This document shows positions 414 to 13,760 of a DNA stretch of 64,000 bases, piece after piece. The notes under the pieces were generated by a model. It worked only from the letters and a program-made list of their open reading frames with translations, made no database searches and was not told where the DNA came from. Made by a program: the position numbers and the translations under genes. The stretch's first letter is position 1, and each line of letters begins with the position of its first letter. The DNA is from Aerolutibacter ruishenii. GTDB lineage: Bacteria > Pseudomonadota > Gammaproteobacteria > Xanthomonadales > Xanthomonadaceae. Location of the stretch: positions 1 to 64,000 of the forward strand of contig NZ_VLKP01000012.1 of assembly GCF_007830115.1 (NCBI RefSeq), written 5' to 3'.

Positions 414-896
414 TTAAAGCGCCTCGGCGACCGGCATCGGTGCCGCCGGCGTGCGCGCCGCGCGGGCAAAGCGCGAGGACAACGCCTTGCGCAGCGCCTC
501 CAGCCCCTGGCTGCGGCCGGCGACCTTGAGCAGCGCGTAGCCGTCCAGCGCGAAGTCCATCACGTCGCTGCCCAGCGCCACGTCGGTGTCCTGCGCGCGC
601 TCGGCCAACTGCTGCAGGCGGTGCACGATGGGGCGCAACGTGTCGAGCGCCGCCAGGTCGGCCTGCGCCTCGGCCAGCGACATGCTGGGCGGCACGATCT
701 GCGGGTTGTTGCGCAGCACCACCAGCGTCTCGCGGCAGAACTCCTGCGACTTGCCGCCCATGCGGGCCAGGCGCTTGCGCTCGTCGACGTCGAGCGCGAC
801 CAGGCCGCTCAACTGCGCTTCCAGCGTGGTGAGGGTCTGCTCGATGGCCGCGATCTGCTCGGCGGAGTAGGAAAGGGAAATCAGGTTCTGTGACAC
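414..896 (-). CDS. Conserved hypothetical protein, 160 aa, alpha-helical
   Basis: I do not recognise a family with certainty. The 160-residue product is soluble, rich in Ala, Leu and Gln and looks helical, with segments such as IAAIEQTLTTLEAQLSG and MGGKSQEFCRETL. It has no signal peptide or membrane segment. A GTG start at 894-896 is chosen because AAAGGAAC precedes it at good spacing; upstream codons in the same frame look non-coding. It stands alone, with a terminator downstream and a 230-base divergent gap to the HEPN gene in which nothing was seen. Confidence 0.75.
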   Translation of the reverse strand: MSQNLISLSYSAEQIAAIEQTLTTLEAQLSGLVALDVDERKRLARMGGKSQEFCRETLVVLRNNPQIVPPSMSLAEAQADLAALDTLRPIVHRLQQLAERAQDTDVALGSDVMDFALDGYALLKVAGRSQGLEALRKALSSRFARAARTPAAPMPVAEAL

Positions 897-1129
897 GGCA
901 AGTTCCTTTGCATTCCTTGTGATGATCCCGGCAGACGCTGGAATGAGGTGCGCCTGCGCGGGTGTGCCCTTGTCGCCGTCCGGTGGCGCGGGTCCCGTGG
1001 CCTGTAGGGCGGTGGTGGGCGGGGCGGAGTGTTGCAGAGGGGCGGGGGTGATGCAAACGCGGGTGCGACGCCGGCATGGAGCTTCCCTCGTCGGGCACAA
1101 TGGCCCATCGGCCGGACTGGAGACCCCGA

Positions 1130-1791: not shown

Positions 1792-2694
1792 ATGAAATTC
1801 GCCAAACCGCCGATTTCCTTCGATGACATGGTCCGGCGCTGGCGGGATCGCGGCATGGTCATCGATGACCCGGCTGGCGCGGCCCAGTATCTGGCCCACA
1901 TCAACTACTACCGGTTTGCGGGTTATGTCCTTCCTTTCGAGGAGGATCACGCCACGCATGGCCTCAAGTCGGGAACACGATTTGAGGATGTGCTCAACCT
2001 GTATGTTTTCGACCGGGAATTGCGCCTGCTCATGCTCGATGCCATCGAGCGCATCGAGGTTTCCCTCCGGACGCAATGGGCGTATCACCTTGCCCATGCC
2101 ACCGGACCACACGGCTACCTCGACATACGCAATGCCGCATCGGCCAGAAACTTCGCCAGCCAGCTGGCTTTGTTGGAGCGGGAACTGGATCGCTCGAGGG
2201 AAGCTTTCATCTCGCACCATAGGAGCAAGTACACCGATCCAGACCTGCCGCCAGTCTGGGTCGCCTGCGAGGTCATGTCGTTGGGGCAACTATCGCAGTG
2301 GTATACGCTGCTGCGCCCACTGAGCCTGCGCAAGAAGATCGCGGCTACTTACGGCTTGGACCAGCAGGTGTTGCAATCCGTCCTACTGCATCTGAGCTAC
2401 GTCCGTAACCTTTGCGCGCACCACAGCCGGCTGTGGAACCGCGAAATGGTCATCACCTTTTCGGTGCCGAAACGGCCATCAGCCCTGCGAGCCTCTATTG
2501 CCGATCCGTCTTCGCGCCAGATATACAACTCGTGCTGCGTGATTGCGTGGCTGATGCAGCAGGTCAATCCGGGTAACCATTGGCGCAGCCGGTTGGCGGA
2601 CCTGTTGTGTCGCCATCATGTGGACATGGCGGCCATGGGGTTCCCAAAGGGATGGCAATCCCAACCCCTCTGGGCTCCGAGCACGCCGGTCTAA
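1792..2694 (+). CDS. abiF: AbiF/AbiD-type abortive infection protein (Abi_2, HEPN fold)
   Basis: The 300-residue product matches the Abi_2 family: an N-terminal PISFDDMVRRWRDRGMVI block, the NYYRF..Y block near residue 38-46, and the RELRLLMLDAIERIEVSLRTQ helix at 75-95. R205-x4-H210 in YVRNLCAHHSRLWNR is the HEPN RNase motif. Family members stop phage growth by shutting down the infected cell. The ATG at 1792 lies 11 bases after the U-tract of the structured RNA, so RNA and gene form one unit. No other partner protein is adjacent: the HEPN gene upstream is a separate family and the methyltransferase downstream begins after 77 bases. Confidence 0.9.
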   Translation: MKFAKPPISFDDMVRRWRDRGMVIDDPAGAAQYLAHINYYRFAGYVLPFEEDHATHGLKSGTRFEDVLNLYVFDRELRLLMLDAIERIEVSLRTQWAYHLAHATGPHGYLDIRNAASARNFASQLALLERELDRSREAFISHHRSKYTDPDLPPVWVACEVMSLGQLSQWYTLLRPLSLRKKIAATYGLDQQVLQSVLLHLSYVRNLCAHHSRLWNREMVITFSVPKRPSALRASIADPSSRQIYNSCCVIAWLMQQVNPGNHWRSRLADLLCRHHVDMAAMGFPKGWQSQPLWAPSTPV

Positions 2695-2771: not shown

Positions 2772-5700
2772 GTGGCCGACACCGGACTGGACGCAGCCGA
2801 CGCCTTCATCAGCAAGTGGCAAGGCGTCACCGCCTCCGAGCTGTCCACCTCGCAGAGCTTCCTGTCCGACCTGTGCCGCCTGCTGGGCGTGGACACCCCG
2901 CACCCCACGCCCGAACAGGACTACATGTTCGAGCGGCCCATCACCTTCCGCCACGGCGACGGCAGCAGCAGCGCCGGCCGCATTGACCTGTACCGGCGCG
3001 GCGTGTTCGTGCTGGAGTCGAAGAAGCTCAAGGCCGCCACCCACACCAAGGGCTTTGACGATGCGCTGCTGCGCGCCCGCAGCCAGGCCGAGGCCTACGC
3101 CCGCGCGCTGCCCGCCAGCGAAGGCCGCCCCCCGTTCGTGGTGGTGGTGGACGTGGGCAACCGCATCGAGCTGTACGCCGAGTTCTCCCGCTCCGGCGCC
3201 ACCTACACCCCGTTCCCCGACCCCAGCAGCCACCGCATCGCGCTGACCGACCTGCGCCGCGACGACGTGCGCGAGCGCCTGCGCAAGCTGTGGACCGACC
3301 CGCTGTCGCTGGACCCCAGCCGCGAGTCCGCGCGCGTCACCCGCGCCATCGCCGCGCAACTGGCCGAGCTGGCCAAGTCATTGGAGAAGAGCGGCCACCC
3401 CGCCGAAGCCGTCGCGCAGTTCCTGATGCGCTGCCTGTTCACCATGTTTGCCGAAGACGTGAAGCTGCTGCCGCACGACAGCTTCCGCGACCTGCTGCAA
3501 CGCCACGCCGAACAGCCCGACATCGCCATGCGCATGCTGGCCCAGCTGTGGCGCGACATGGACGCCGGCGGCTTCTCCGCCGTGCTGGCCAACGACGTAC
3601 TGCGCTTCAACGGCAAGTTGTTCAAGCAGCCCGACACCCTGCCGCTGGACGCCCCCCAACTGGCGCTGCTGATCGACGCCGCCCGCGCCGACTGGAAGCA
3701 CGTGGAGCCGGCCATCTTCGGCACCCTGCTGGAGCGCGCCCTCAGCCCCGGCGAGCGCCACAAGCTGGGCGCCTACTACACCCCGCGCGCCTACGTGGAG
3801 CGGTTGGTGCTGCCCACCGTGATCGAACCGCTGCGCGCCGAGTGGAGCAACACCCAGGCCGCCGCGCTCACCCTGGCCGCCGAGGACAAGCCCGACGAAG
3901 CCGTGGCCGAACTGCTCAAGTTCCACCACCGCCTGTGCACCGTGCGTGTGCTGGACCCGGCGTGCGGCAGCGGCAACTTCCTGTACGTGACGCTGGAGCA
4001 CCTCAAGCGCCTGGAAGGCGAAGTGCTCAACGCGCTGGACGAACTGGGCCACCGCCAGACCGGCCTGGCCCTGGGCGGCGAACGCGCCGACGCCATGGCC
4101 GGCGAAACCGTGGACCCGCACAACCTGCTGGGCATCGAACTGAACCCGCGCGCCGCTGCCATTGCCGAAGTGGTGCTGTGGATCGGCTACCTGCAATGGC
4201 ACTTCCGCACCCGCGGCGACGTGAAGCCGCCGCAACCGGTGATCCGCGACTTCCGAAACATCGAGAACCGGGATGCGGTGTTGGCGTATGACCGGGTGGA
4301 GTATGTGACCGACGAGAAGGGCGTGCCGGTTACCCGCTGGGATGGCAAGACCATGAAGCCCTCGCCGGTGACCGGCGAGGACATCCCCGACGAAACCGCG
4401 CGCGTGCCGGTGGAGCGCTACGTGAATCCACGCAAGGCGGCGTGGCCGGAGGCGGATTTTGTGGTGGGGAATCCGCCGTTTATTGGAGGCTGGCGCATGC
4501 GTGCCGCGCTGGGCGAGGGTTACGTCGATGCGATCTGGTCGACATACCCGAAGATTCCACCGAAGGCAGACTTGGTGATGTTCTGGTGGGACAAGGCTGC
4601 GGAGTTGGTTCGCTCCGGTGTATTGGAACGTTTTGGCTTCATCACGACCAACAGCATCGGCCAAGTGTTCCAGCGTCGTGTTATCGAGAATCACGTAGCG
4701 GCCAGTGAACTGCCGTTGGGGATCGTCTTCGCAGTTCCCGATCATCCTTGGGTCGATTCCGGTGACGGGGCAGCGGTCCGCATTGCGATGACGGTTGGGC
4801 AGGCTGGCGCCAAGCCCGGTCGCCTTGCGCAAGTAATTGCGGAAGAGGCGAGTGAGGAGGAAATGGTTGTTTCCGTCGCAGGCCGAGCCGGCGTCATCAA
4901 TGCAGATCTAACTATTGGCGCAGACGTCTCTTCTGCGAAGGCCCTCAGGTCCAATGAGGGGCTGTCATCGCCCGGCGTGCAGCTTTATGGCTCAGGCTTC
5001 ATCATCGATGCGGAAACTGCCAAGCAGATGATCGTCGCCGTCACGAGTGGTCGGGGTGCTCGTGTGATCAGGCCGTATGTCAACGGTCGAGACCTTATGC
5101 AGGTTCAGCGAGGAGTGTTCGTCATCGACTTCTTCGGAATGGATCGTGATGAAGCCGCATTGGTGCACCCCATGGCATACCAACGGGCTCTCGATTATGT
5201 GAAACCAGAACGCGACCAGAACCGGCGAGCTGCGATTCGGGACAAGTGGTGGCGTTTTGGCTGGGAGAGGCCAGTAATGCGAGCCGCGACAGATGGGCTG
5301 AGTCGCTATGTCGCGACGGTCGAAACGTCCAAGCACCGTGTATTTGTTTTTCTTTCGGAAGAGACGCTTCCTGACAACATGCTAACCGTCATCGCAACTG
5401 ATGACGCAAGCATTCTCGGTGTGCTGTCCAGCATCACTCATGTCACGTGGGCACTTGCTGCAGGTGGCCGGCTGGGTGTTGGTAACGATCCTAGATACAA
5501 CAAGACGCGTTGCTTTGAGCCGTTCCCGTTCCCGGCGGCAGGTGAAAACCACGAAGACCTCATCCGCATCCATGCCGAACACCTCGACACCCACCGCAAG
5601 CGCCAGCAGGCCGCCCACCCCGACCTCACCCTGACCGGCATGTACAACGTGCTGGACAAGCTGCGCAGCGGCGAGCCGCTGACCGCCAAGGAGCGCACCG

Positions 5701-6284
5701 TGCACGAGCACGGCCTGGTTTCGGTGCTGCGCCAACTGCACGACGACCTCGACGCCGCCGTGCTCGACGCCTACGGCTGGTCCGACCTCACTGCGCTGCT
5801 GCGCGTGGCACACGGCAACGACGCCCCGGCCGAGGGCCAGACCCGCGACGACGCCAAGCGCGCTTTCGACGAAGCCATCCTCGAACGCCTGGTGGCGCTC
5901 AACGCCGAGCGCGCCGCCGAGGAAGCGCGCGGCCTGGTGCGCTGGCTGCGCCCCGAGTTCCAGAACCCGCAGGCGCGCGCCGCCGACGCCCCGGCCCCGG
6001 AGCAGGGCACGCTTGACGCCGGCACCGACGACGCCAGCGACGACACCGCCGCTGCCGCGCCCATCGCCAGCAAGCCGCAGCCGTGGCCCAAGGACACCGT
6101 GGAGCAGGTGCGCGCCGTCGCCGACCTGCTCGCCGCCAGCCCCGCGCCGCTCTCGCTCGATGAGATCGCCGGTCGCTTTACTGGCCGCGGCCCGTGGAAG
6201 AAGCGCCTGCCGCAGTTGCTGGAGATGTTGGTGGCGTTGGGTAGGGCGCAAGTGCAGCATGGAATGTATCTAACGGCCGGCTAA
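2772..6284 (+). CDS. Type IIG/IIL-like restriction-methyltransferase fusion
   Basis: This single 1170-residue chain appears to carry nuclease, DNA adenine methyltransferase and target-recognition functions. Near the N-terminus D72, E82 and K84 in GRIDLYRRGVFVLESKK fit a PD-(D/E)xK nuclease. SAM motif I is DPACGSGNFLY near residue 395 and the catalytic motif IV is NPPF near 567. The block around residues 570-920 should be the target-recognition domain, and the C-terminal 60 residues look like a winged helix. The GTG start has AGGGGAG upstream. The overall plan resembles MmeI-type enzymes (about 920 residues) with extra C-terminal sequence. No separate specificity or restriction subunit is adjacent, consistent with a one-protein system. 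Base use drops in GC within 4440-5520 only. Confidence 0.8.
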   Translation: MADTGLDAADAFISKWQGVTASELSTSQSFLSDLCRLLGVDTPHPTPEQDYMFERPITFRHGDGSSSAGRIDLYRRGVFVLESKKLKAATHTKGFDDALLRARSQAEAYARALPASEGRPPFVVVVDVGNRIELYAEFSRSGATYTPFPDPSSHRIALTDLRRDDVRERLRKLWTDPLSLDPSRESARVTRAIAAQLAELAKSLEKSGHPAEAVAQFLMRCLFTMFAEDVKLLPHDSFRDLLQRHAEQPDIAMRMLAQLWRDMDAGGFSAVLANDVLRFNGKLFKQPDTLPLDAPQLALLIDAARADWKHVEPAIFGTLLERALSPGERHKLGAYYTPRAYVERLVLPTVIEPLRAEWSNTQAAALTLAAEDKPDEAVAELLKFHHRLCTVRVLDPACGSGNFLYVTLEHLKRLEGEVLNALDELGHRQTGLALGGERADAMAGETVDPHNLLGIELNPRAAAIAEVVLWIGYLQWHFRTRGDVKPPQPVIRDFRNIENRDAVLAYDRVEYVTDEKGVPVTRWDGKTMKPSPVTGEDIPDETARVPVERYVNPRKAAWPEADFVVGNPPFIGGWRMRAALGEGYVDAIWSTYPKIPPKADLVMFWWDKAAELVRSGVLERFGFITTNSIGQVFQRRVIENHVAASELPLGIVFAVPDHPWVDSGDGAAVRIAMTVGQAGAKPGRLAQVIAEEASEEEMVVSVAGRAGVINADLTIGADVSSAKALRSNEGLSSPGVQLYGSGFIIDAETAKQMIVAVTSGRGARVIRPYVNGRDLMQVQRGVFVIDFFGMDRDEAALVHPMAYQRALDYVKPERDQNRRAAIRDKWWRFGWERPVMRAATDGLSRYVATVETSKHRVFVFLSEETLPDNMLTVIATDDASILGVLSSITHVTWALAAGGRLGVGNDPRYNKTRCFEPFPFPAAGENHEDLIRIHAEHLDTHRKRQQAAHPDLTLTGMYNVLDKLRSGEPLTAKERTVHEHGLVSVLRQLHDDLDAAVLDAYGWSDLTALLRVAHGNDAPAEGQTRDDAKRAFDEAILERLVALNAERAAEEARGLVRWLRPEFQNPQARAADAPAPEQGTLDAGTDDASDDTAAAAPIASKPQPWPKDTVEQVRAVADLLAASPAPLSLDEIAGRFTGRGPWKKRLPQLLEMLVALGRAQVQHGMYLTAG
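5881..6008. repeat. Source copy of a 128-bp segment repeated at 10924-11050
   Basis: This stretch encodes the ERLVALNAERAAEEARGLV region near the methyltransferase C-terminus. It recurs in direct orientation 5,043 bases downstream with only scattered mismatches and a single-base indel near the end. The distal copy is not part of a gene. Confidence 0.85.
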
Positions 6285-6346: not shown

Positions 6347-7063
6347 ATGCAGCAAGAAACTACGGTTGCAGAGAATGCGCAGGCAAACGAAAGCGTGGAG
6401 AAGCGTGGGCTGATCTACCGGCTCTTTGCGGGCTATCGCACATGGCGTGCGTCGATTGAGGCCCACCCTGTTTGGGGGGTGTTGTTAGGTGGCATGCTCC
6501 TTCTGTTGGGCGTCGCGGGGAGTGAAGCATACGGATGGGCCCGGTCAAAGGTTGTGGGGCCAGATGAGTTTCTCGTGCAGATCGAGGAAACCCAGAAGCG
6601 TGAGTTCGATGAGATCAAGAAGAATCTGGGGCAGATCCGCAGTTCGATGAATGATGCGGGTCGTGACGCATTCGACAACGTCAAGAATGCTGTTAATGCT
6701 TTGGAGAGCACCAATAACGGTCTTTTGCAGCAGATTCAGTTGGCAAAGCAGGAGAACGAAACGCTGCGCAAGATCGTGCAGGATTCCAAGGGGATCAGCG
6801 GGGGCTATGACTTCATTCTTACCGAAGAATCGGGAATCAAGCTGGATGAGGTGACCACTGTCGGATTACAGCACGTTAGCTCTGGAACGGCCGCGGTGAA
6901 TTTGTCGTCAGCAAAGAACCAGAGCGGAAATTCATCCGCCTACTTGCATAGCGGTGAATCGTTATCGTATGTGGATGCTGCAGGGCGTAATTGCCGCCTT
7001 GTGGTCATGACAGTGAAGTCGGGGCGTCCGGGGACTGCATCTTTCTCTAGGTCCTGTGCCTGA
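6347..7063 (+). CDS. Membrane-anchored coiled-coil protein, unknown function
   Basis: Not recognised. The 238-residue protein has a cytoplasmic N-terminus, one strong membrane span at about residues 44-62 (WGVLLGGMLLLLGVAG), a long helical probable coiled coil at about 75-150 (EIKKNLGQIRSSMNDAG.., LLQQIQLAKQENETLRKI), and a C-terminal beta-rich domain ending SFSRSCA. The ATG follows a very G-rich ribosome site (GGGAGGGGGGG). Base composition is clearly lower in GC than the methyltransferase upstream, suggesting separate acquisition. The layout resembles membrane sensors or scaffolds in defence cassettes, but that is inference. Confidence 0.7.
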   Translation: MQQETTVAENAQANESVEKRGLIYRLFAGYRTWRASIEAHPVWGVLLGGMLLLLGVAGSEAYGWARSKVVGPDEFLVQIEETQKREFDEIKKNLGQIRSSMNDAGRDAFDNVKNAVNALESTNNGLLQQIQLAKQENETLRKIVQDSKGISGGYDFILTEESGIKLDEVTTVGLQHVSSGTAAVNLSSAKNQSGNSSAYLHSGESLSYVDAAGRNCRLVVMTVKSGRPGTASFSRSCA

Positions 7064-7129
7064 TGAAGGATCGCCGTGGTCATGGCATGGGGCCATGGCC
7101 ATGGTCATGCTTGGGTGCGAGTTGGACCA

Positions 7130-7282
7130 ATGGATATTCTGATCTTCATCGGTCTTGCCGCTCTGCTTCTTCTGCTGTTCTTCGGCGGTTTGGCGTTTGT
7201 CCACGGAGTTGTCTCCGCGCTTTTGACCCTGCTGTATCCCCGTCGTTATTGCCGCTGCGAGAAGTCCGATGACGGCAATTGA
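7130..7282 (+). CDS. Small single-span membrane protein, 50 aa
   Basis: MDILIFIGLAALLLLLFFGG begins a strongly hydrophobic N-terminal helix. A second moderately hydrophobic stretch and a charged Cys-containing tail (YCRCEKSDDGN) follow. The reading frame overlaps the start of the GIY-YIG gene by 14 bases, so the two are probably translationally coupled. An upstream in-frame ATG at 7076 would add a His/Gly-rich leader (WGHGHGHAW) of doubtful coding value. Function unknown. Confidence 0.55.
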   Translation: MDILIFIGLAALLLLLFFGGLAFVHGVVSALLTLLYPRRYCRCEKSDDGN

Positions 7283-8144
7283 ACTGAACGATCTTCTGGC
7301 CAAGACCGGGCTCGATCCGGCCCGCGTCATGGTCATGCGCCACCGCCCCACCGAGCCGGCGTTGCGCCGGGCATTGCCATGGCTCGCGCAAGATCGCCAC
7401 GAGGTCTACAACGCCTACCAGTCGCAGCACGGCGAGCGTGTGGAGACGTCATTGAGCCGTGCGACGCACCTGGCGTCCTTCATCGGCAACGAGGCGCGCT
7501 GCGCGCTGTTCGTCGGTGTCTATGCGGTAGAGAGCTTCCGCCGCATCAGCTCTGACCAGTTCTGGACCATTCCGGAGAACCATGCGCTCAAAGCGCTCGG
7601 GACGCGTGGCCCCAGCGACGGCCGTGACTCGCTCTGGTTCGATCTGCGCCTGACGGATGCACTGGAGGCCTACAAGGGGCGGCTGGTGGTGGAATGGAGC
7701 GGCATCGAACGCGCGTGGTGGCGCTGGGCTGCCCGCAATGTGCTGCCGGTACAAGCCATCCACGGTGAATCGCTTCTGGTGCCGCCGGTGCCCGACTGGA
7801 AAGAACTCGTACTCAGTTTGCAGGAACTGCAGACATTACCAACCAGTTGGCGACAGGCGCTGTCCCACTGGCGCGGCATCTATTACATCCACGATCGCGC
7901 CTGCGGCAAGGGCTATGTCGGCTCCGCCTATGGCGCTGACAATCTACTGGGTCGTTGGAGCGGCTATGCCGCCACAGGACACGGCGGCAATCGCTGGCTT
8001 CGCGACCGCGATCCCGCCGAGTTCGTGTTCAGCATCCTGCAGCGCACGTCGCCCGATACGGAGGCCGAAGAAGTGATTGCGCTGGAATCGTCATGGAAAG
8101 AGCGATTGCATACCCGGCACCCAGTAGGGCTCAACGACAACTGA
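7269..8144 (+). CDS. GIY-YIG nuclease domain protein
   Basis: Residues about 202-290 form a GIY-YIG nuclease. GIYYIHD gives the name motif, KGYVGSAYG the second strand, an Arg follows in GRWSGY, a catalytic-type Glu lies in EEVIALESSWKERL, and GLNDN closes the domain. The first 200 residues (with LASFIGNEARCALFVGVYAV and RLVVEWSGIERAWWRW) form a separate unidentified domain, perhaps DNA-recognising. The length of 291 residues is normal for such two-domain proteins, some annotated as restriction-related. The start is set by the overlap with the small membrane gene. It is followed after 49 bases by the PLD gene on the same strand. Confidence 0.85.
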   Translation: MTAIELNDLLAKTGLDPARVMVMRHRPTEPALRRALPWLAQDRHEVYNAYQSQHGERVETSLSRATHLASFIGNEARCALFVGVYAVESFRRISSDQFWTIPENHALKALGTRGPSDGRDSLWFDLRLTDALEAYKGRLVVEWSGIERAWWRWAARNVLPVQAIHGESLLVPPVPDWKELVLSLQELQTLPTSWRQALSHWRGIYYIHDRACGKGYVGSAYGADNLLGRWSGYAATGHGGNRWLRDRDPAEFVFSILQRTSPDTEAEEVIALESSWKERLHTRHPVGLNDN

Positions 8145-8193
8145 GCACATTGGATTTGAAGCCAAGATGGACAACCAATAGTAAGGAGACCAC

Positions 8194-8916
8194 GTGGCAA
8201 AGTTCCTCAACACCAGTGCAACCAACTACTTCCTTGAAGAGCTCATCAAGGACGCCAAGGATCGTCTGATCCTGATCAGCCCCTACCTGAAGCTCAACGA
8301 CAGGGTGAAGGAGCTGTTGGCGGACAAGAACCGCCTCAAGATCGACGTGCGCATGGTCTACGGCAAGAGCGAGCTGCAGCCGATGGAGATCAGCTGGTTG
8401 CGCGAGCAGAGCTACATCCGCACCAGCTTCTGCAAGAACCTGCACGCCAAGTGCTACCTCAATGAGGAGCTGTGCATCATCACCAGCCTGAACCTGTACG
8501 AGTTCAGCCAGGTCAACAACAACGAGATGGGCATCCTGATCCGTCGGTCCGAAGACGCCGAGCTGTACCGCGAGGCGTACGAGGAGGCCCAGCGCATCAT
8601 CCGCATCAGCGACGAAGTGCGGATTTCGCTTGAGCGTGTCGAGGCCGACGAGCCGGCCAGTGCTGCGTACGAGGCCGAGCAAGAGTCGGCAGGTGACGAG
8701 GACGCGCCCGTGGGAAAGCTCACCACCTCCAGGCTCGCCCGCAAGCTGGGCCTGAAGACCGCTGAGTTGACGGAAAGGCTGCTTGCCACCGGTTTGTTGG
8801 AATTGAAGTCAGGCAAGCCGCACCTCACCGACAAGGGCAAGGAGGTCGGCGGCGAGTTCCGCATGAGTCCCAGGTTTGGTGGTTATTTCCTATGGCCTGA
8901 CTCGCTGAGCGCATAG
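8194..8916 (+). CDS. Phospholipase D-family nuclease with C-terminal winged helix
   Basis: The 240-residue protein has one PLD catalytic half-site: H84-x-K86 (LHAKCYLNEE), then TSLN at 97-100 and N110-E111. Single-HKD proteins of this size act as dimers and are often nucleases. About residues 170-240 (LTTSRLARKLGLKTAELTERLL..) look like a winged helix that could bind nucleic acid. Acidic and Ala-rich residues 150-170 link the parts. The GTG start has TAAGGAG upstream. The Mrr gene starts eight bases after the stop, so these two are almost certainly cotranscribed. Confidence 0.8.
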   Translation: MAKFLNTSATNYFLEELIKDAKDRLILISPYLKLNDRVKELLADKNRLKIDVRMVYGKSELQPMEISWLREQSYIRTSFCKNLHAKCYLNEELCIITSLNLYEFSQVNNNEMGILIRRSEDAELYREAYEEAQRIIRISDEVRISLERVEADEPASAAYEAEQESAGDEDAPVGKLTTSRLARKLGLKTAELTERLLATGLLELKSGKPHLTDKGKEVGGEFRMSPRFGGYFLWPDSLSA

Positions 8917-8924
8917 GCACGGAC

Positions 8925-9800
8925 ATGGGGCGGACAGGGGGAAAGCGTTGGTACGGACAGAAACAGGTTAAACACCGCCGCGACGATGCGCTGGCGCGCA
9001 TGGACCCGCTGGCCTTTGAGCGCCTGATGGGCGACTACTACCGGGGGCTGGGCTACAAGGTTGATGGTTGTGGGACCGGCGGCCGCGCTAGCCAGCACGA
9101 CGGTGGTATCGACCTGAAGTTGTACAAGGATGGCGAGTACACCGTCGTCCAATGCAAGCGCGAGAACGCCAATCAGGTCACCCATAACGTGATGCACCAG
9201 CTTCTCGGCGTGATGCTGACCGAGGGTGCGCACAAGGCAGTCGTGATCACCACGGGTGAATTCACCGACGCGGCGTGGAGCAAGGCGAAGAACGATGCGC
9301 GCATGCAGTTGATCGACGGTACGAAGCTGCGCGACATGTTGGGGCCGCTGCTACCGGCGGACGCTGCTCCCTCGCCGGTCACTCCCTCTCTGGCCGCGTC
9401 GTACTGGGGGCTGTCGGCGCCTTATCGTGAGCGTGTCAAAGCCGAGAGGGAGCCAGCGGGCGGTCGTCCGTCCCGGCGGCGCAAGAAGCAGGACGACGCG
9501 AGTGGACTCGTGGTCGTTGCTGCCGTCGTGCTCGCGATGCTGGTCTGGCAGTGTTCGCGCAAGGCTCCCGCTCCAGTGAAAACGTCCAGTCGTCCCGCGC
9601 AAGTGCAGCCGGCCGTAACGGAACGTCCTGTGTCTGCCACGTCCCCGACGCAAAGGAAGGATGCCGTCGCTCCGACGCAAAGGAATGACGCCGTCGCTCC
9701 GACAACCGGTCAGTCGCATCGCGTAGCCCCACCTTCCGGTGCGTATAGGAGCGACGAGGAAGCGGTAAAGGCGTACTTGGAAGCAATACCGGAGATGTGA
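8925..9800 (+). CDS. Mrr-type restriction nuclease tethered to the membrane
   Basis: An N-terminal Mrr_cat domain occupies about residues 25-140: LAFERLMGDYYRGLGYKV, then D63 in DGGIDL and Q76-x-K78 in VVQCKRE, the PD-(D/E)xK variant of Mrr enzymes. These cut modified or foreign DNA. A basic stretch RRRKKQDD precedes a membrane span at about 193-210 (GLVVVAAVVLAMLVWQC). A 75-residue Pro/Thr/Ala-rich tail follows with the nonapeptide APTQRxDAV in two tandem copies. By the positive-inside rule the nuclease should face the cytoplasm and the tail the periplasm. It is the third nuclease fold in succession in this cassette. Confidence 0.85.
   Translation: MGRTGGKRWYGQKQVKHRRDDALARMDPLAFERLMGDYYRGLGYKVDGCGTGGRASQHDGGIDLKLYKDGEYTVVQCKRENANQVTHNVMHQLLGVMLTEGAHKAVVITTGEFTDAAWSKAKNDARMQLIDGTKLRDMLGPLLPADAAPSPVTPSLAASYWGLSAPYRERVKAEREPAGGRPSRRRKKQDDASGLVVVAAVVLAMLVWQCSRKAPAPVKTSSRPAQVQPAVTERPVSATSPTQRKDAVAPTQRNDAVAPTTGQSHRVAPPSGAYRSDEEAVKAYLEAIPEM
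9648..9701 (+). repeat. Tandem 27-bp repeat in the Mrr gene tail
   Basis: Two adjacent near-identical 27-base units starting CGACGCAAAGGAA encode the repeated TQRKDAVAP / TQRNDAVAP. They lie in the low-complexity periplasmic tail and may vary in copy number between strains. Confidence 0.6.
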
Positions 9801-9900: not shown

Positions 9901-10779
9901 ATGAAAATTCTTCCTGCTGAGTTTGACGGTCACGCCATCCGCCGCGTCTATGACGAGGACACCGAAACCTGGTGGTTCTTCGTTGTTGACGTGGTCCAGG
10001 TTCTCACGCAGCAAGCGGATTACCAGGCGGCGCGGAACTATTGGAAGGTGCTGAAGAACCGTCTGGTGAAGGAAGGCAGTCAGTCGGTTACAGAATGTAA
10101 CCGACTGAAACTGCCGGCCGCCGACGGCAAGTCCTATCTCACCGACGTCGCCACCGCCCAGACCCTGCTCCGTCTGGTCCAGTCAGTCCCCAGCCCCAAG
10201 GCCGAGCCCATCAAGCTGTGGCTGGCCAAGGTGGGCTACGAACGCATGCAGGAGTTGGCCGACCCTTCGCTGGCCCTGGACCGCGCCCGCGAGAGCTGGC
10301 AGCAGCACGGGCGCAGCGACAAGTGGATACAGCAGCGCATGACCGGGCAGGAGACGCGCAACAAGCTGACCGACTACTGGGCCGGCCACGGGGTCACGCC
10401 GGGCGATGAGTTCGCCATCCTCACCGATCTCATCCACCAGGAGTGGTCCGGGGTCAGTGTGAAGCAGCACAAGGGCATGAAGGGGCTGAAAAGCCAGAGC
10501 CTGCGCGACCACATGAGCGAGGCCGAGCTGATCTTCACCGCGCTGGCGGAGCTGTCTACCCGCCAGATTGCCGAGAGCGAGGACGCCACCGGCATGGGTG
10601 AATACAAGAAAGCCGCCAAAGCCGGCGTTGGTTTGGCCAAGCGTGCCCGTTTGGAGCTGGAGGCGCGGACCGGGGCCAAGGTGGTGTCGTCGGAGAACTT
10701 CCTGCCGCCCGGTGCGCAGCAGAAGGAGTTGCCCGCCAAGCCGCGAAGCGGGGGGCGTAAGCAGCCAAAGCCCAAGTGA
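9901..10779 (+). CDS. Bro-N domain protein (phage antirepressor-like / DinD-like)
   Basis: The N-terminal 110 residues are a Bro-N domain (FDGHAIRRVYDEDTETWWF, VVDVVQVL, LLRLVQSVPSPKAEPIKLWL), a DNA-binding module of phage antirepressors. The remainder (WIQQRMTGQETRNKLTDYW, HMSEAELIFTALAELSTRQIAE) matches the extended DinD/Bro-N proteins of bacterial chromosomes, some DNA-damage inducible. The ATG follows AAAGGACTTGCC. A basic C-terminus (RSGGRKQPKPK) could bind DNA. The coding sequence contains a perfect inverted repeat at 10080-10108. A rearranged pseudogene of a close relative lies at 13485-13760. Confidence 0.85.
   Translation: MKILPAEFDGHAIRRVYDEDTETWWFFVVDVVQVLTQQADYQAARNYWKVLKNRLVKEGSQSVTECNRLKLPAADGKSYLTDVATAQTLLRLVQSVPSPKAEPIKLWLAKVGYERMQELADPSLALDRARESWQQHGRSDKWIQQRMTGQETRNKLTDYWAGHGVTPGDEFAILTDLIHQEWSGVSVKQHKGMKGLKSQSLRDHMSEAELIFTALAELSTRQIAESEDATGMGEYKKAAKAGVGLAKRARLELEARTGAKVVSSENFLPPGAQQKELPAKPRSGGRKQPKPK
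10080..10108. repeat. Perfect 13-bp inverted repeat inside the Bro-N gene
   Basis: TCAGTCGGTTACA at 10080-10092 is followed by GAA and its exact complement TGTAACCGACTGA at 10096-10108. It encodes the SVTECNRL stretch of the protein. As DNA it could be a binding site of the Bro-N protein itself; as RNA it is a strong triloop hairpin. The same repeat survives with one mismatch in the pseudogene at 13531-13559. Confidence 0.85.
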
Positions 10780-10923: not shown

Positions 10924-11050
10924 TCGAACGCCTTGTGGCGCGCAACGCCGAGCGCGCCGCCGAGGAAGCGCGCGGCCTGGTGCGCTGGCTGCGCCCCGAG
11001 TTCCAGAACCCGCAGGCGTGCCCCGCCGACGCCCCGGCCCCGGGCAGGGC
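10924..11050 (+). pseudogene. Fragment of the methyltransferase C-terminal region
   Basis: This is a direct repeat of 5881-6008, encoding ERLVARNAERAAEEARGLV and PEFQNPQA. It has no start, no methyltransferase motifs and stops within a few codons of the repeat end. It either moved from the gene upstream or is what remains of a second, related restriction-methyltransferase. Confidence 0.8.
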
Positions 11051-11124: not shown

Positions 11125-11691
11125 ATGGCAAGGATGTGGGTGGTGCTGGGTGATTCAACGTCGAGTGGCGGCAAGGTGGTCACAGGCTCTCCGTTCACTG
11201 ACATTGATGGAATGAGCGTTGCCCGGGTGTCGGACAAAGCGACATGTCTGCTTCACAAGGGCGTATTTCCTATCGTAGATGGCGATTCAACAACTATCAT
11301 CGATGGTCAGCCGGTCGCGCTTCATGGTAGTAGGCTGGCTTGTGGCTGTTCCGTCTTGGCAGTTCAGCAAGTGCGGGTATACGTGGATGGGGGTGGCGCG
11401 AGAGCCGCCAACTCAGGGCCATCGACACAAACTGAAAGCTCACCGCACGTAGTAGAAAAGCTCTTTCATGAGCAGTATCGGGCCGTGGATATAGCGTCCG
11501 GAGAGCCCGTAGCGAATATGGCCTACCGAATAGACAGGGAAGACGGCACGTTTGTCACGGGCTTGACTGGCGCCGATGGATTGACGGGGCGCGTCTCAAC
11601 AAGTCAGCCAGAACGGGTTCGGTTGACTTGGTTGTCAGTCTCATCCGACCAAGTCGGGGTGCCGGAACTGCATGCCACGGAGGGTTGCTGA
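11125..11691 (+). CDS. PAAR-domain protein, type VI secretion spike tip or cargo adaptor
   Basis: The N-terminal 90 residues are a PAAR domain (GDSTSSGGKVVTGSP, CLLHKGVFPIVDGDSTTIIDG, ALHGSRLACGCSVLA). PAAR proteins cap the VgrG spike and carry effectors into target cells. Residues 100-188 are an extension ending in a small beta-domain (ANMAYRIDREDGTFVTGLTGADG, resembling DUF2345/transthyretin-like VgrG or PAAR extensions), probably the docking surface for the effector. The ATG has a near-perfect AAGGAGGGA site. The stop abuts the next start, so the genes are coupled. No other T6SS component is in the window. Confidence 0.85.
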   Translation: MARMWVVLGDSTSSGGKVVTGSPFTDIDGMSVARVSDKATCLLHKGVFPIVDGDSTTIIDGQPVALHGSRLACGCSVLAVQQVRVYVDGGGARAANSGPSTQTESSPHVVEKLFHEQYRAVDIASGEPVANMAYRIDREDGTFVTGLTGADGLTGRVSTSQPERVRLTWLSVSSDQVGVPELHATEGC

Positions 11692-12888
11692 ATGTCGCAA
11701 GTAATTGCTGCCACGCAAACGACGCCCGGTTTGGAACCGACGAAGGTGCCGGTAACACCCTTGCGAACGGTGACCTACTTGTTCAATACAGGGACATGGG
11801 TTCCTGCCAATGTAGGGTCAAGTTCAGAGAAGTACCTCAAGATTCCGTATGAGGTTGCATTCGACGGGGTAGTTCAGCCGAAATCGCGTGGGTGGCCACA
11901 GCGGATCGTAGGTCGGACACCGTTCCGGGTTCAGGTGCCCGCTGGAACACAGGTGTCCTTGTTTTTGAATACCGACGCGCTGCCTGGCGCCCGGCACAAG
12001 CCTGTGTATGCCGTAAGGACGGGGCAGCGCGATGTCGTTGTCACGGTTTCAGAAACCAGGGGCACGGCGTTGGCGACACCGGACTCGCCCGTGTTCTCAC
12101 ATACTGCCGTAGATCCTCGGTCTGGAACGCAAACCGATTACTACAAGGCGCCGCTTCACGGAAACATCTGGGCACGGATATCCAAGGTCTACACTGCAGA
12201 CGATGCACTGGCTTTGGTTCCGGCGAGCGCAGACGCAGGCGTTCGGGAAGCCGTGCTTTCGATCTATCGCGTGCTTGGCTCAACAACCCTTGTGGTGCGC
12301 TGTGCTGCGCCAGAGGGGCATCAGCTGGCTGTTGTTTTTGCCGATTCCGAGAATCCACGGCAAAACATCAGCAATTACACGTTGTTGAGGGATGGGCTGA
12401 CAAGGGTCCACCCGCTCGGATTCTTTGCATTGATTGATGCTGCGCGTATTGCGGGCGCCACCCAGCTAAGTGTGACGTCGTGCTGGAGGCCGTCCCTTGG
12501 CTCAATCGCGCATCGGGCTGGATTAGGCTTGGATGTCAATATTATTGGAGATGCACAGGAGGACGTGCGCTTCAATCGCGCTGAGTTGATTGGACAGGGC
12601 CCTGACGTTCCGTGGGTAACGCCCGCTGAGGTGCAAAGCTATCGAGATCGTCGTGCGAATCGTGCAGCATGGGTTGAGGAGCTGGAGGGGAGTAAGCCAC
12701 GGCTTGTTGCGGATTTTCAGCGTTTGCTTCGAGCATCTCCCCACATCAAGCAGGTCTTCGATCCTTGGTATATGGATGCAAACACGAAGGACGATGTTGC
12801 GCCGGCGTGCAACGAGCAGGTTTCAGTCAATGAGAAGCTGCACAACAACCATCTCCATATCACGCTTGATGTCCCAGGTGTTCTGTGA
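11692..12888 (+). CDS. Probable T6SS effector with M15/M74-like zinc metallopeptidase domain
   Basis: The start codon directly follows the PAAR stop. The 398-residue protein has an N-terminal beta-rich half (residues 20-150) and a C-terminal half that looks like a peptidoglycan peptidase of the LAS fold. H274-x6-D281 (HRAGLGLDV) and H387-x-H389 (NNHLHITL) are the zinc-ligand pattern of M15/M74 enzymes, with SCWRPSLGS just before. Such enzymes cut peptide cross-links in the cell wall. With a PAAR gene before it and a lipoprotein gene overlapping its end, it is best read as an antibacterial wall-degrading effector. The specific bond cut is unknown. GC content is below that of the core genes. 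Confidence 0.7.
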   Translation: MSQVIAATQTTPGLEPTKVPVTPLRTVTYLFNTGTWVPANVGSSSEKYLKIPYEVAFDGVVQPKSRGWPQRIVGRTPFRVQVPAGTQVSLFLNTDALPGARHKPVYAVRTGQRDVVVTVSETRGTALATPDSPVFSHTAVDPRSGTQTDYYKAPLHGNIWARISKVYTADDALALVPASADAGVREAVLSIYRVLGSTTLVVRCAAPEGHQLAVVFADSENPRQNISNYTLLRDGLTRVHPLGFFALIDAARIAGATQLSVTSCWRPSLGSIAHRAGLGLDVNIIGDAQEDVRFNRAELIGQGPDVPWVTPAEVQSYRDRRANRAAWVEELEGSKPRLVADFQRLLRASPHIKQVFDPWYMDANTKDDVAPACNEQVSVNEKLHNNHLHITLDVPGVL

Positions 12889-13376
12889 AGTACAGCAGTC
12901 CATGCGCGGCACTTTTCCTCGTGGCTTTAGCTGGTTGCCACGACTTTTACCTGGGTCAAGTGAATGAGATGGGGAGCTGTGGGTCGGAAGAACTTCGTAG
13001 CGACTGGAAGTCCATACGTTCGAAAGTGGCGAACTCATCGTCTGCCGCGCGGTTGATTCGGGCGATTGCATGCGCGCCGGAGTCAGATAGGCCGGTCGAG
13101 CATATCGGCGCGCACCTTGATGAACAGGTGACATTTGTTGCCTCCAGTACCGGCGACGAGGTCGAGGAGGTTAGGGTGTTGCCGCGTGCCTTGGCAAAGC
13201 GCGAAGTGTTTGCCTTCCTTGGCTCACCTGAGTTCCGCTACGGATTGGGAAGGCGGGAGCCTGGAGAGCTTGAACTCATCGCGCAGAATGAAGCCTGTAT
13301 GGAAATGTTTGTGTTAGTGCATAAGGCCAATCGGCAGGATTGGGTTGTTAGTCGCTACGAAAGCGCGTGCGATTGA
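12885..13376 (+). CDS. Lipoprotein, probable immunity protein to the upstream effector
   Basis: A GTG start overlaps the effector stop (GTGA), a strong sign of a toxin-immunity pair. The signal peptide ends in the lipobox LAGC, with C18 as the lipidated residue, placing the 145-residue mature domain in the periplasm where a wall-degrading effector acts. Cysteines near residues 32, 62, 140 and 162 could form disulphides. No family recognised. The alternative, an unrelated lipoprotein, is less likely given the overlap. Confidence 0.7.
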   Translation: MKYSSPCAALFLVALAGCHDFYLGQVNEMGSCGSEELRSDWKSIRSKVANSSSAARLIRAIACAPESDRPVEHIGAHLDEQVTFVASSTGDEVEEVRVLPRALAKREVFAFLGSPEFRYGLGRREPGELELIAQNEACMEMFVLVHKANRQDWVVSRYESACD

Positions 13377-13484: not shown

Positions 13485-13760
13485 GCGAGACGCCGAAACT
13501 TGGTGGTTCGCTGTTGGCCAAGGAGGGGAGTCAGTCGGTTACAAATTGTCACCGACTGAACCTCGCTGATGCTCACGAACCTCATCCACCAGGAGTGGTC
13601 CGGGGTCAGTGTGAAGCAGCGCGATGGCATGAAGGGCAACGGCCGCCAAGGCCGGCGGGCAATTCGCCAAGCGTGCGCGATTGGATCTGGAGGCGCGGAC
13701 GGGCACCAGAGTGATGTCGTCGGACAGCTTCCTGCCACCCGTTACGGCCTCCAAATCACT
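13485..13760 (+). pseudogene. Bro-N/DinD-like pseudogene with large internal deletions
   Basis: Blocks matching the gene at 9901-10779 appear in the same order: ETPKLGG (for the EDTETWW region), the SQSVTxC inverted-repeat region, TNLIHQEWSGVSVKQ, the AKRARLDLEARTG block, and MSSDSFLPP. The intervening parts, including most of the Bro-N core and the central domain, are missing and the frame shifts between blocks. Similarity to the intact gene at DNA level is high, implying a recent common source such as a second, now eroded, island copy. Confidence 0.85.
13531..13559. repeat. Second copy of the Bro-N inverted repeat
   Basis: TCAGTCGGTTACA, three bases, then TGTCACCGACTGA: the 10080-10108 element with a single arm mismatch. 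It is among the best preserved parts of the pseudogene. Confidence 0.8.

Follow-up and report, generated by a model that had tools for sequence, protein, structure and literature searches.

A probable composite defence island in Aerolutibacter ruishenii with a recurrent PLD-Mrr gene pair

The window analysed here is a stretch of 64,000 nucleotides from Aerolutibacter ruishenii (contig NZ_VLKP01000012.1, positions 1 to 64,000), a member of the Xanthomonadaceae. Five genes at positions 6347-9800 had been proposed, from the letters alone, to form a new defence cassette of membrane proteins and nucleases. In our analysis these genes did not behave as a unit. The stretch is probably a composite defence island of separately acquired genes and not one system: judged from sequence matches, a type IIG restriction-methylation enzyme, an orphan coiled-coil protein with a tiny membrane protein, UzuA, the PLD-Mrr pair and a BRO-N candidate follow one another head to tail here, whereas relatives carry the pieces apart from each other. 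Gene order in other genomes points to the last two genes, encoding a PLD-fold nuclease and a Mrr nuclease-domain protein, as a recurrent two-gene unit; elsewhere the PLD gene has NERD or DUF2726 neighbours, mostly with a predicted membrane helix. Recognising the patchwork guards against naming a false five-gene system and isolates a candidate unit in which a conserved PLD nuclease is combined with exchangeable restriction-like partners, most of them membrane-anchored.

The five genes and their distribution

The five open reading frames (ORFs) are collinear:

6347-7063, forward strand: coiled-coil protein, 238 amino acids; borderline membrane helix, C-terminal beta domain, orphan family
7076-7282, forward strand: small membrane protein, 68 amino acids from a GTG or 50 amino acids from an internal ATG at 7130
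7269-8144, forward strand: GIY-YIG protein, assigned to UzuA, 291 amino acids
8194-8916, forward strand: PLD-fold nuclease (phrog_9329), 240 amino acids; no membrane helix, extra C-terminal domain
8925-9800, forward strand: Mrr nuclease-domain protein, 291 amino acids; one predicted helix (about 189-207) and a C-terminal tail; partner of the PLD protein

These coordinates reproduce the originally noted 14-bp overlap (7269-7282, between the second and third ORF) and the later gaps of 49 bp and 8 bp. Family matches were obtained for three of the ORFs, and six other genomes encode homologues of the coiled-coil protein; thus the ORFs are more than chance. Their third-position GC is, in order, 0.63, 0.59, 0.76, 0.86 and 0.74. 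A promoter scan returned 0 promoter-like sites, and the terminator count was near the shuffled mean.

The distribution of the genes was followed in 198 genomes of the family Xanthomonadaceae, including that of the window (G000); all family counts refer to this sample. Mrr-type proteins were found in 63 genomes, the MmeI-like enzyme encoded upstream of the five ORFs in 15, the PLD protein in 10 (seven full length and three partial, in G014, G059 and G132), the coiled-coil protein and UzuA in 7 each, and the 50-amino-acid protein in 1. Coiled-coil protein, UzuA and PLD protein occurred together in G000 alone. Elsewhere, partial UzuA and PLD matches lie on separate contigs of G059, a coiled-coil and a MmeI gene on separate contigs of G083, and a coiled-coil gene about 28 kb from a Mrr-type gene in G062. 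The five genes seldom co-occur, and therefore the set is not a conserved system. On these counts the five-gene cassette was rejected. Other parts of the original prediction held: the defence context of the stretch, the membrane tethering of the Mrr protein, which has a clear predicted helix, and the PLD-Mrr pair, which recurs adjacent in other loci. Both outcomes that would count against the five-gene set were obtained, in that its genes are rarely found together and the third protein hits a named system, Uzume. The PLD-Mrr pair is unnamed.

The third protein matches the PADLOC model UzuA (PDLC03973) with an E value of 1e-78 over residues 4-291 of 291 and profile positions 3-278 of 278. It has a GIY...YVG motif from residue 203; the Pfam GIY-YIG match is weak (E 0.0033, below its cut-off). 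From this alignment it is a full-length UzuA, without any tested difference from Uzume, and here it is flanked by unrelated genes. Uzume is a single-gene system. In six stretches around UzuA relatives (two of the matches being partial or distant) tblastn found no other cassette gene. UzuA probably acts separately.

The same search in six stretches around relatives of the coiled-coil protein also found no other cassette gene. By eye, the surroundings of both sets of relatives appear to consist of metabolic, other chromosomal or insertion-sequence genes. The coiled-coil protein matched no PADLOC family, its Pfam matches were weak and all below cut-off, and its model, a long helical region of low confidence (predicted local distance difference test score, pLDDT, 65.7), gave nothing in Foldseek at E <= 0.001. 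Its membrane helix is borderline, with a score of 1.78 by the 19-residue hydropathy used for all helix predictions. A role of this protein in defence is unsupported, its relatives sitting in unrelated-looking contexts. The 50-amino-acid protein has a clear membrane helix (hydropathy 2.88) and no match in the 197 other family genomes searched, and its reality thus rests solely on position and hydropathy.

The PLD nuclease and its restriction-like partners

The PLD protein matches Pfam PLDc_2 (E 4.7e-09) and phrog_9329 (E 7.7e-108). Its site H84-K86-N100-E111 was invariant in 20 aligned sequences, which suggests that the protein itself is under selection. Foldseek matches of its model were TrmBL2 (ranked first, an archaeal chromatin protein), NucT, Zucchini, Nuc and SauUSI. 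With the bacterial PLD nucleases Nuc and NucT (Foldseek matches 6ehi, 1byr) it has the PLD fold and the H-K-N-E residues in common; unlike them it has an extra C-terminal domain, which in a model of moderate confidence (predicted template modelling score, pTM, 0.51) consists of helices and short strands and would fit a winged helix. A sequence search of solved structures with the PLD, Mrr and UzuA proteins gave nothing useful.

The Mrr protein matches Pfam Mrr_cat (E 7.6e-26) and has the D..QxK motif, as do type IV Mrr enzymes; it differs from these in having no Mrr_N match and, instead, a membrane helix (at residue ~189, hydropathy 2.24) and a tail. A cysteine follows the helix (WQCS, WRCS, VQCV and similar) in the PLD-paired Mrr proteins of the window and of loci L004, L006, L007, L008 and L017; possibly it serves as a lipid anchor or forms a disulphide.

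A scan of the genome_contigs collection gave 259 stretches with a PLD relative, of which the best 80 were analysed, so that the counts concern near relatives. These 80 proteins are 65-85% identical. Most come from Pseudomonadota, with Cyanobacteriota, Planctomycetota and others also represented, and many stem from metagenome assemblies. At E <= 1e-40 the PLD protein was found in 4 of 369 class genomes, and at the DNA level in none of the E. coli complete genomes searched.

PLD and Mrr genes are adjacent in four of the seven full-length family cases. Among the genome_contigs loci, a protein with Mrr domain, helix and tail follows the PLD protein in seven (L002, L004-L008, L017), at distances from a slight overlap to 68 bp; three of these loci (L005, L006 and L008) belong to family genomes already counted among the four. 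Searched with Mrr and NERD partner profiles, 18 of the 80 loci have a Mrr-, NERD- or DUF2726-type ORF adjacent (<250 bp) on the PLD strand, on either side, and 16 of these 18 partners have a predicted membrane helix. Of the two others, one is an 88-amino-acid fragment (L039), and the NERD ORF of L080 is preceded by a separate small ORF that has the helix. L007 has two adjacent Mrr ORFs. Eleven partners were taken into Pfam (those of L002, L004-L008 and L039 lie outside this set) and all were confirmed as four Mrr_cat, six NERD and one DUF2726 protein, seven of them with Zn_ribbon_Top1. The partner profiles were partly built from the partners themselves, and an independent control exists for Mrr alone: a Mrr profile built from ten PLD-free genes hit the 80 loci (1.32 Mb) 14 times, and 12 of these hits were directly beside the PLD gene on its strand, in 11 loci.

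In the PLD tree (89 rows) the partner state changes 12 times by parsimony, 5 of these changes being forced by starred branches, and NERD is scattered, with 7 changes for 7 rows. In the sister pair L051/L060 one locus has NERD upstream, the other a helix-Mrr protein downstream. In 28 comparisons among eight paired loci, median identity was 80% for PLD, 39% for Mrr and 53% for the Mrr catalytic domain; by these alignments the Mrr partner evolves faster than the PLD protein. In the Mrr tree, which leaves out matches weaker than E 1e-30 as well as the second match of G193 and that of G171, for which no locus was obtained, seven of the eight paired proteins fall into a single starred group that excludes the 26 unpaired family members. 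The exception, L006, is placed with an unpaired protein, as if a second pairing had taken place.

Possible function of the pair

We see in the two genes an unnamed PLD-Mrr nuclease module with a predicted anti-phage role. A search of titles and abstract openings, mostly without subscription papers, found no description of PLD paired with Mrr or with NERD. The following course is the most likely one, as judged from domain content, residues and gene order. The Mrr domain would face the cytoplasm at the inner membrane, as suggested by the basic residues before its helix, and the soluble PLD protein and the tethered Mrr protein would cut DNA as it enters or soon after. The type IIG enzyme would restrict and protect independently; possibly this neighbouring methylase also shields self DNA from the pair. 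That the pair cuts DNA at entry is plausible at somewhat less than an even chance; if so, it would provide a defined example of incoming DNA being cut at the membrane.

A wider and tentative version is that the phrog_9329 PLD protein together with an exchangeable membrane-anchored partner (Mrr, NERD or DUF2726, on either side) forms an unnamed two-component system which destroys foreign DNA at the inner membrane. The nearly invariant PLD protein would do the cutting whatever its partner, and recognition or positioning of the target would fall to the fast-evolving membrane protein. We regard this version as possible and no more.

Several observations weigh against a defence pair within a composite island. 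No adjacent partner was detected in 62 of the 80 PLD loci, and one was found in a single viral contig (L229) of 57; PLD can thus occur without a partner. The NERD profile has no independent control. The paired Mrr proteins sit on long branches, which could inflate their grouping in the tree. In 27 family genomes there is a similarly built Mrr protein (E <= 1e-30) and no PLD match, and by eye the neighbours of PLD-free Mrr genes looked mostly ordinary in the 10 stretches examined. Given these ordinary-looking contexts, the membrane Mrr protein need not be a defence gene. Finally, a 120-bp repeat of the MmeI gene brackets everything from the coiled-coil gene through the BRO-N gene (both MmeI and BRO-N genes are listed below), so that on at least one occasion the block may have been transferred as a whole.

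The other explanations considered are not all exclusive of a composite island. For the mechanism of the PLD-Mrr pair the main rival is a role in DNA repair or DNA processing, the presence of PLD and membrane Mrr or NERD proteins in an island being incidental. The high identity of PLD across phyla in the best 80 of 259 loci would fit such a role, as would the 'DNA repair protein' label of the copies in Vibrio phages, the PLD-free Mrr genes in ordinary-looking contexts and the topoisomerase zinc ribbon in six of nine partners of one Pfam-scanned set; moreover, many PLD copies stand alone among housekeeping-looking genes, e. g. by eye before a KsgA-like gene. Against such a role stand the patchy presence of PLD in the family and in the class, its occurrence next to varying cargo on conjugative plasmids and viral contigs, and the rapid divergence of the Mrr partner compared with PLD. 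We consider this role unlikely.

The PLD gene on viruses and plasmids

The PLD gene was found in 57 viral contigs. Seven phage records carry it, all of Vibrio phages, and the two examined are filamentous; the gene is annotated 'DNA repair protein', and one record labels its copy drmC. In one viral contig (L229) a helix-Mrr ORF ends 28 bp before the PLD gene, in L184 a Mrr-type ORF lies about 1.5 kb and in L192 a NERD-type ORF about 0.6 kb downstream. When viral contigs were scanned directly with UzuA or the Mrr protein of the window, no match was confirmed. A PLD relative (E <= 1e-15) was also found in 617 plasmid records, 601 of them with less than 60% identity and 575 predicted conjugative. 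On a Cupriavidus plasmid the PLD gene is followed by NERD; eight other plasmid stretches were read, and partners were looked for via the annotation and the proteins scanned. The pair of PLD and partner is found on chromosomes and, among the mobile elements examined, on one viral contig (with Mrr) and one plasmid (with NERD); most of the viral contigs and plasmids examined have PLD without an adjacent partner. On a Klebsiella variicola plasmid (L168, 5398-6822) a SNase-type nuclease gene, encoding a further kind of nuclease next to this PLD family, precedes a distant PLD relative (42.6% identical).

The ORFs nearest to the viral PLD gene fall into 34 clusters upstream (57 loci) and 28 downstream (51 loci), and four of the neighbours tested were OLD- or AAA-type ATPases. 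This constancy of PLD amid changing neighbours, and the variable slot before PLD in the family, could be read to mean that PLD hitchhikes or marks a hotspot, with conserved DNA that anchors recombination where cargo is exchanged and with partners that are random cargo. A restriction-endonuclease-like neighbour in 18 of the 80 loci would, however, be hard to expect of random cargo, and so would the single starred group of paired Mrr proteins. Furthermore, the catalytic residues are invariant in 20 sequences, and the largest clusters of viral neighbours (13 upstream, 17 downstream) seem to be genes belonging to the phages themselves, some ORFs being spurious. We hold the hitchhiker explanation to be quite unlikely.

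The variable slot before the PLD gene

Upstream of the five ORFs lies a MmeI-like gene:

2772-6284, forward strand: MmeI-like type IIG restriction-methylation enzyme; D..E-x-K nuclease motif, NPPF methylase motif

The protein matches PADLOC REase_MTase_IIG over its full length (E 0) and all of the Pfam domains MmeI_N, MmeI_hel, MmeI_Mtase and MmeI_TRD. By these matches it is a complete enzyme with fused nuclease, methylase and target-recognition domains. The four MmeI domains and the full-length PADLOC match are what it has in common with MmeI-like type IIG enzymes; an enzyme of the window type recurs before PLD(-Mrr) in some family members.

Besides the window, MmeI precedes PLD in four family loci, and the slot between them differs each time. 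It holds the coiled-coil, 50-amino-acid and UzuA genes in the window; Abi_C, an unknown protein and further genes (6 kb) in L004; a Mrr_N+Mrr_cat enzyme in L007; a 139-amino-acid helix protein in L008/L151; and a RelA/SpoT protein in L154, where PLD is truncated beside insertion-sequence-like genes and a Mrr hit is absent. The defence genes that lie upstream of PLD-Mrr in other loci are SIR2 and HerA in L006, a NACHT gene in L005, the Abi_C and Mrr_N+Mrr_cat genes just named, and AAA+UvrD, which we read as Gabija-like; in L017 a Schlafen-type helicase lies upstream on the other strand. ORFs in the flanking stretches were called by simple rules, so that some are spurious, and names given by eye are unsupported by search. 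PLD was near MmeI in three of the 15 family genomes with MmeI. In the fetched stretches of the 12 others, several of which end at or near MmeI, no PLD gene was found beside it. MmeI is thus, by gene order, not tied to PLD.

The original prediction also had the cassette follow a methyltransferase that could mark self DNA. This is partly supported, in so far as MmeI-like genes precede PLD in the four other loci (with Mrr in three of them), with different genes between; the enzyme is, however, a self-sufficient type IIG and more than a bare methyltransferase, and no PLD was found in the 12 other MmeI stretches, several of which are cut by contig ends. The recurring layout of MmeI, slot and PLD(-Mrr) could also mean that MmeI, the variable middle gene or genes, PLD and Mrr constitute one modular restriction system in which MmeI marks self, the slot gene senses and PLD-Mrr destroy. 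Such a system is highly unlikely: the enzyme has nuclease and methylase motifs of its own, no MmeI hit was obtained in the available stretches of the PLD-Mrr loci L002, L005, L006 and L017, and the layout is accounted for equally well by a common insertion hotspot. A single five-gene anti-phage system, whose two membrane proteins would bring three nucleases to the site of DNA entry, is extremely improbable. In its favour are the common strand, the overlap, the short gaps, the three nuclease folds and the position between two copies of the MmeI repeat; against it are the presence of the set in one of 198 family genomes, that of the window, the lack of other cassette genes in the 12 stretches around relatives of UzuA or of the coiled-coil protein, the prior naming of UzuA and the differing base composition of the ORFs.

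Comparison with known systems

Zorya consists of the ZorA/ZorB membrane pair with ZorC and ZorD. It was rejected as a candidate: neither the coiled-coil nor the small membrane protein matches a PADLOC model, and the Mrr protein matches no more than the nuclease end of ZorD, with 24.1 bits. BREX was rejected likewise, with PglX as the best match at 38 versus 900 bits and no other BREX gene in nine proteins. DrmC of DISARM shares the PLD fold with the window protein, and its name appears in the Vibrio phage record mentioned above; the similarity is weak, with an NCBIfam score of 33.1 versus a curated cut-off of 133 bits, and neither DrmA nor DrmB was among the PADLOC matches of nine window proteins (for the MmeI-like protein, the best 25 of 39 families). 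DISARM was rejected as well. In the Dpd-like and BRIGADE systems PLD or PD-(D/E)xK nucleases are alternatives within one kind of neighbourhood and go with YprA-family helicases (PMC12458937), whereas here PLD and a restriction-like partner stand side by side. No YprA-type helicase was seen among the nine proteins scanned.

Further genes of the probable island

The five ORFs and the MmeI-like gene are flanked by the following features:

414-908, reverse strand: 'MSQN'-type small protein, 164 amino acids as searched; multi-copy in the family
1792-2694, forward strand: AbiD/Abi_2 abortive-infection protein (Pfam Abi_2 9.9e-59, PADLOC AbiD 2.7e-72), outside the cassette
9901-10779, forward strand: BRO-N protein, a neighbour (PADLOC candidate PDC-S13, 1.6e-116)
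10924-11043, forward strand: 120-bp repeat, a 97% copy of 5881-6000 near the 3' end of the MmeI gene

The repeat may stem from an earlier recombination event or be what is left of a second MmeI gene. Parts of the BRO-N gene (10064-10716) recur 3 kb downstream, at 13515-13746, with 80-90% identity, as a decayed second copy. AbiD has a distant relative (28% identical) next to MmeI, on the opposite strand, in another family genome too (L280, 1216-2103).

The 'MSQN'-type protein matched no Pfam family. It was present in 61 of the 198 family genomes, often in multiple copies, with 11 matches in G100. It occurs near MmeI, PLD or Mrr in three other loci (L004, L008/L151 and L154), 230 bp from MmeI in L287 and less than 1 kb from Mrr-type genes in G005, G151 and G168, and it may mark an insertion hotspot.

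By eye, the region ~11125-13376 encodes a PAAR-like protein, then a protein of 398 amino acids with M15-peptidase-like His/Asp motifs and then a lipoprotein-like ORF, the latter two without a Pfam match. These genes could be a type VI secretion effector-immunity set.

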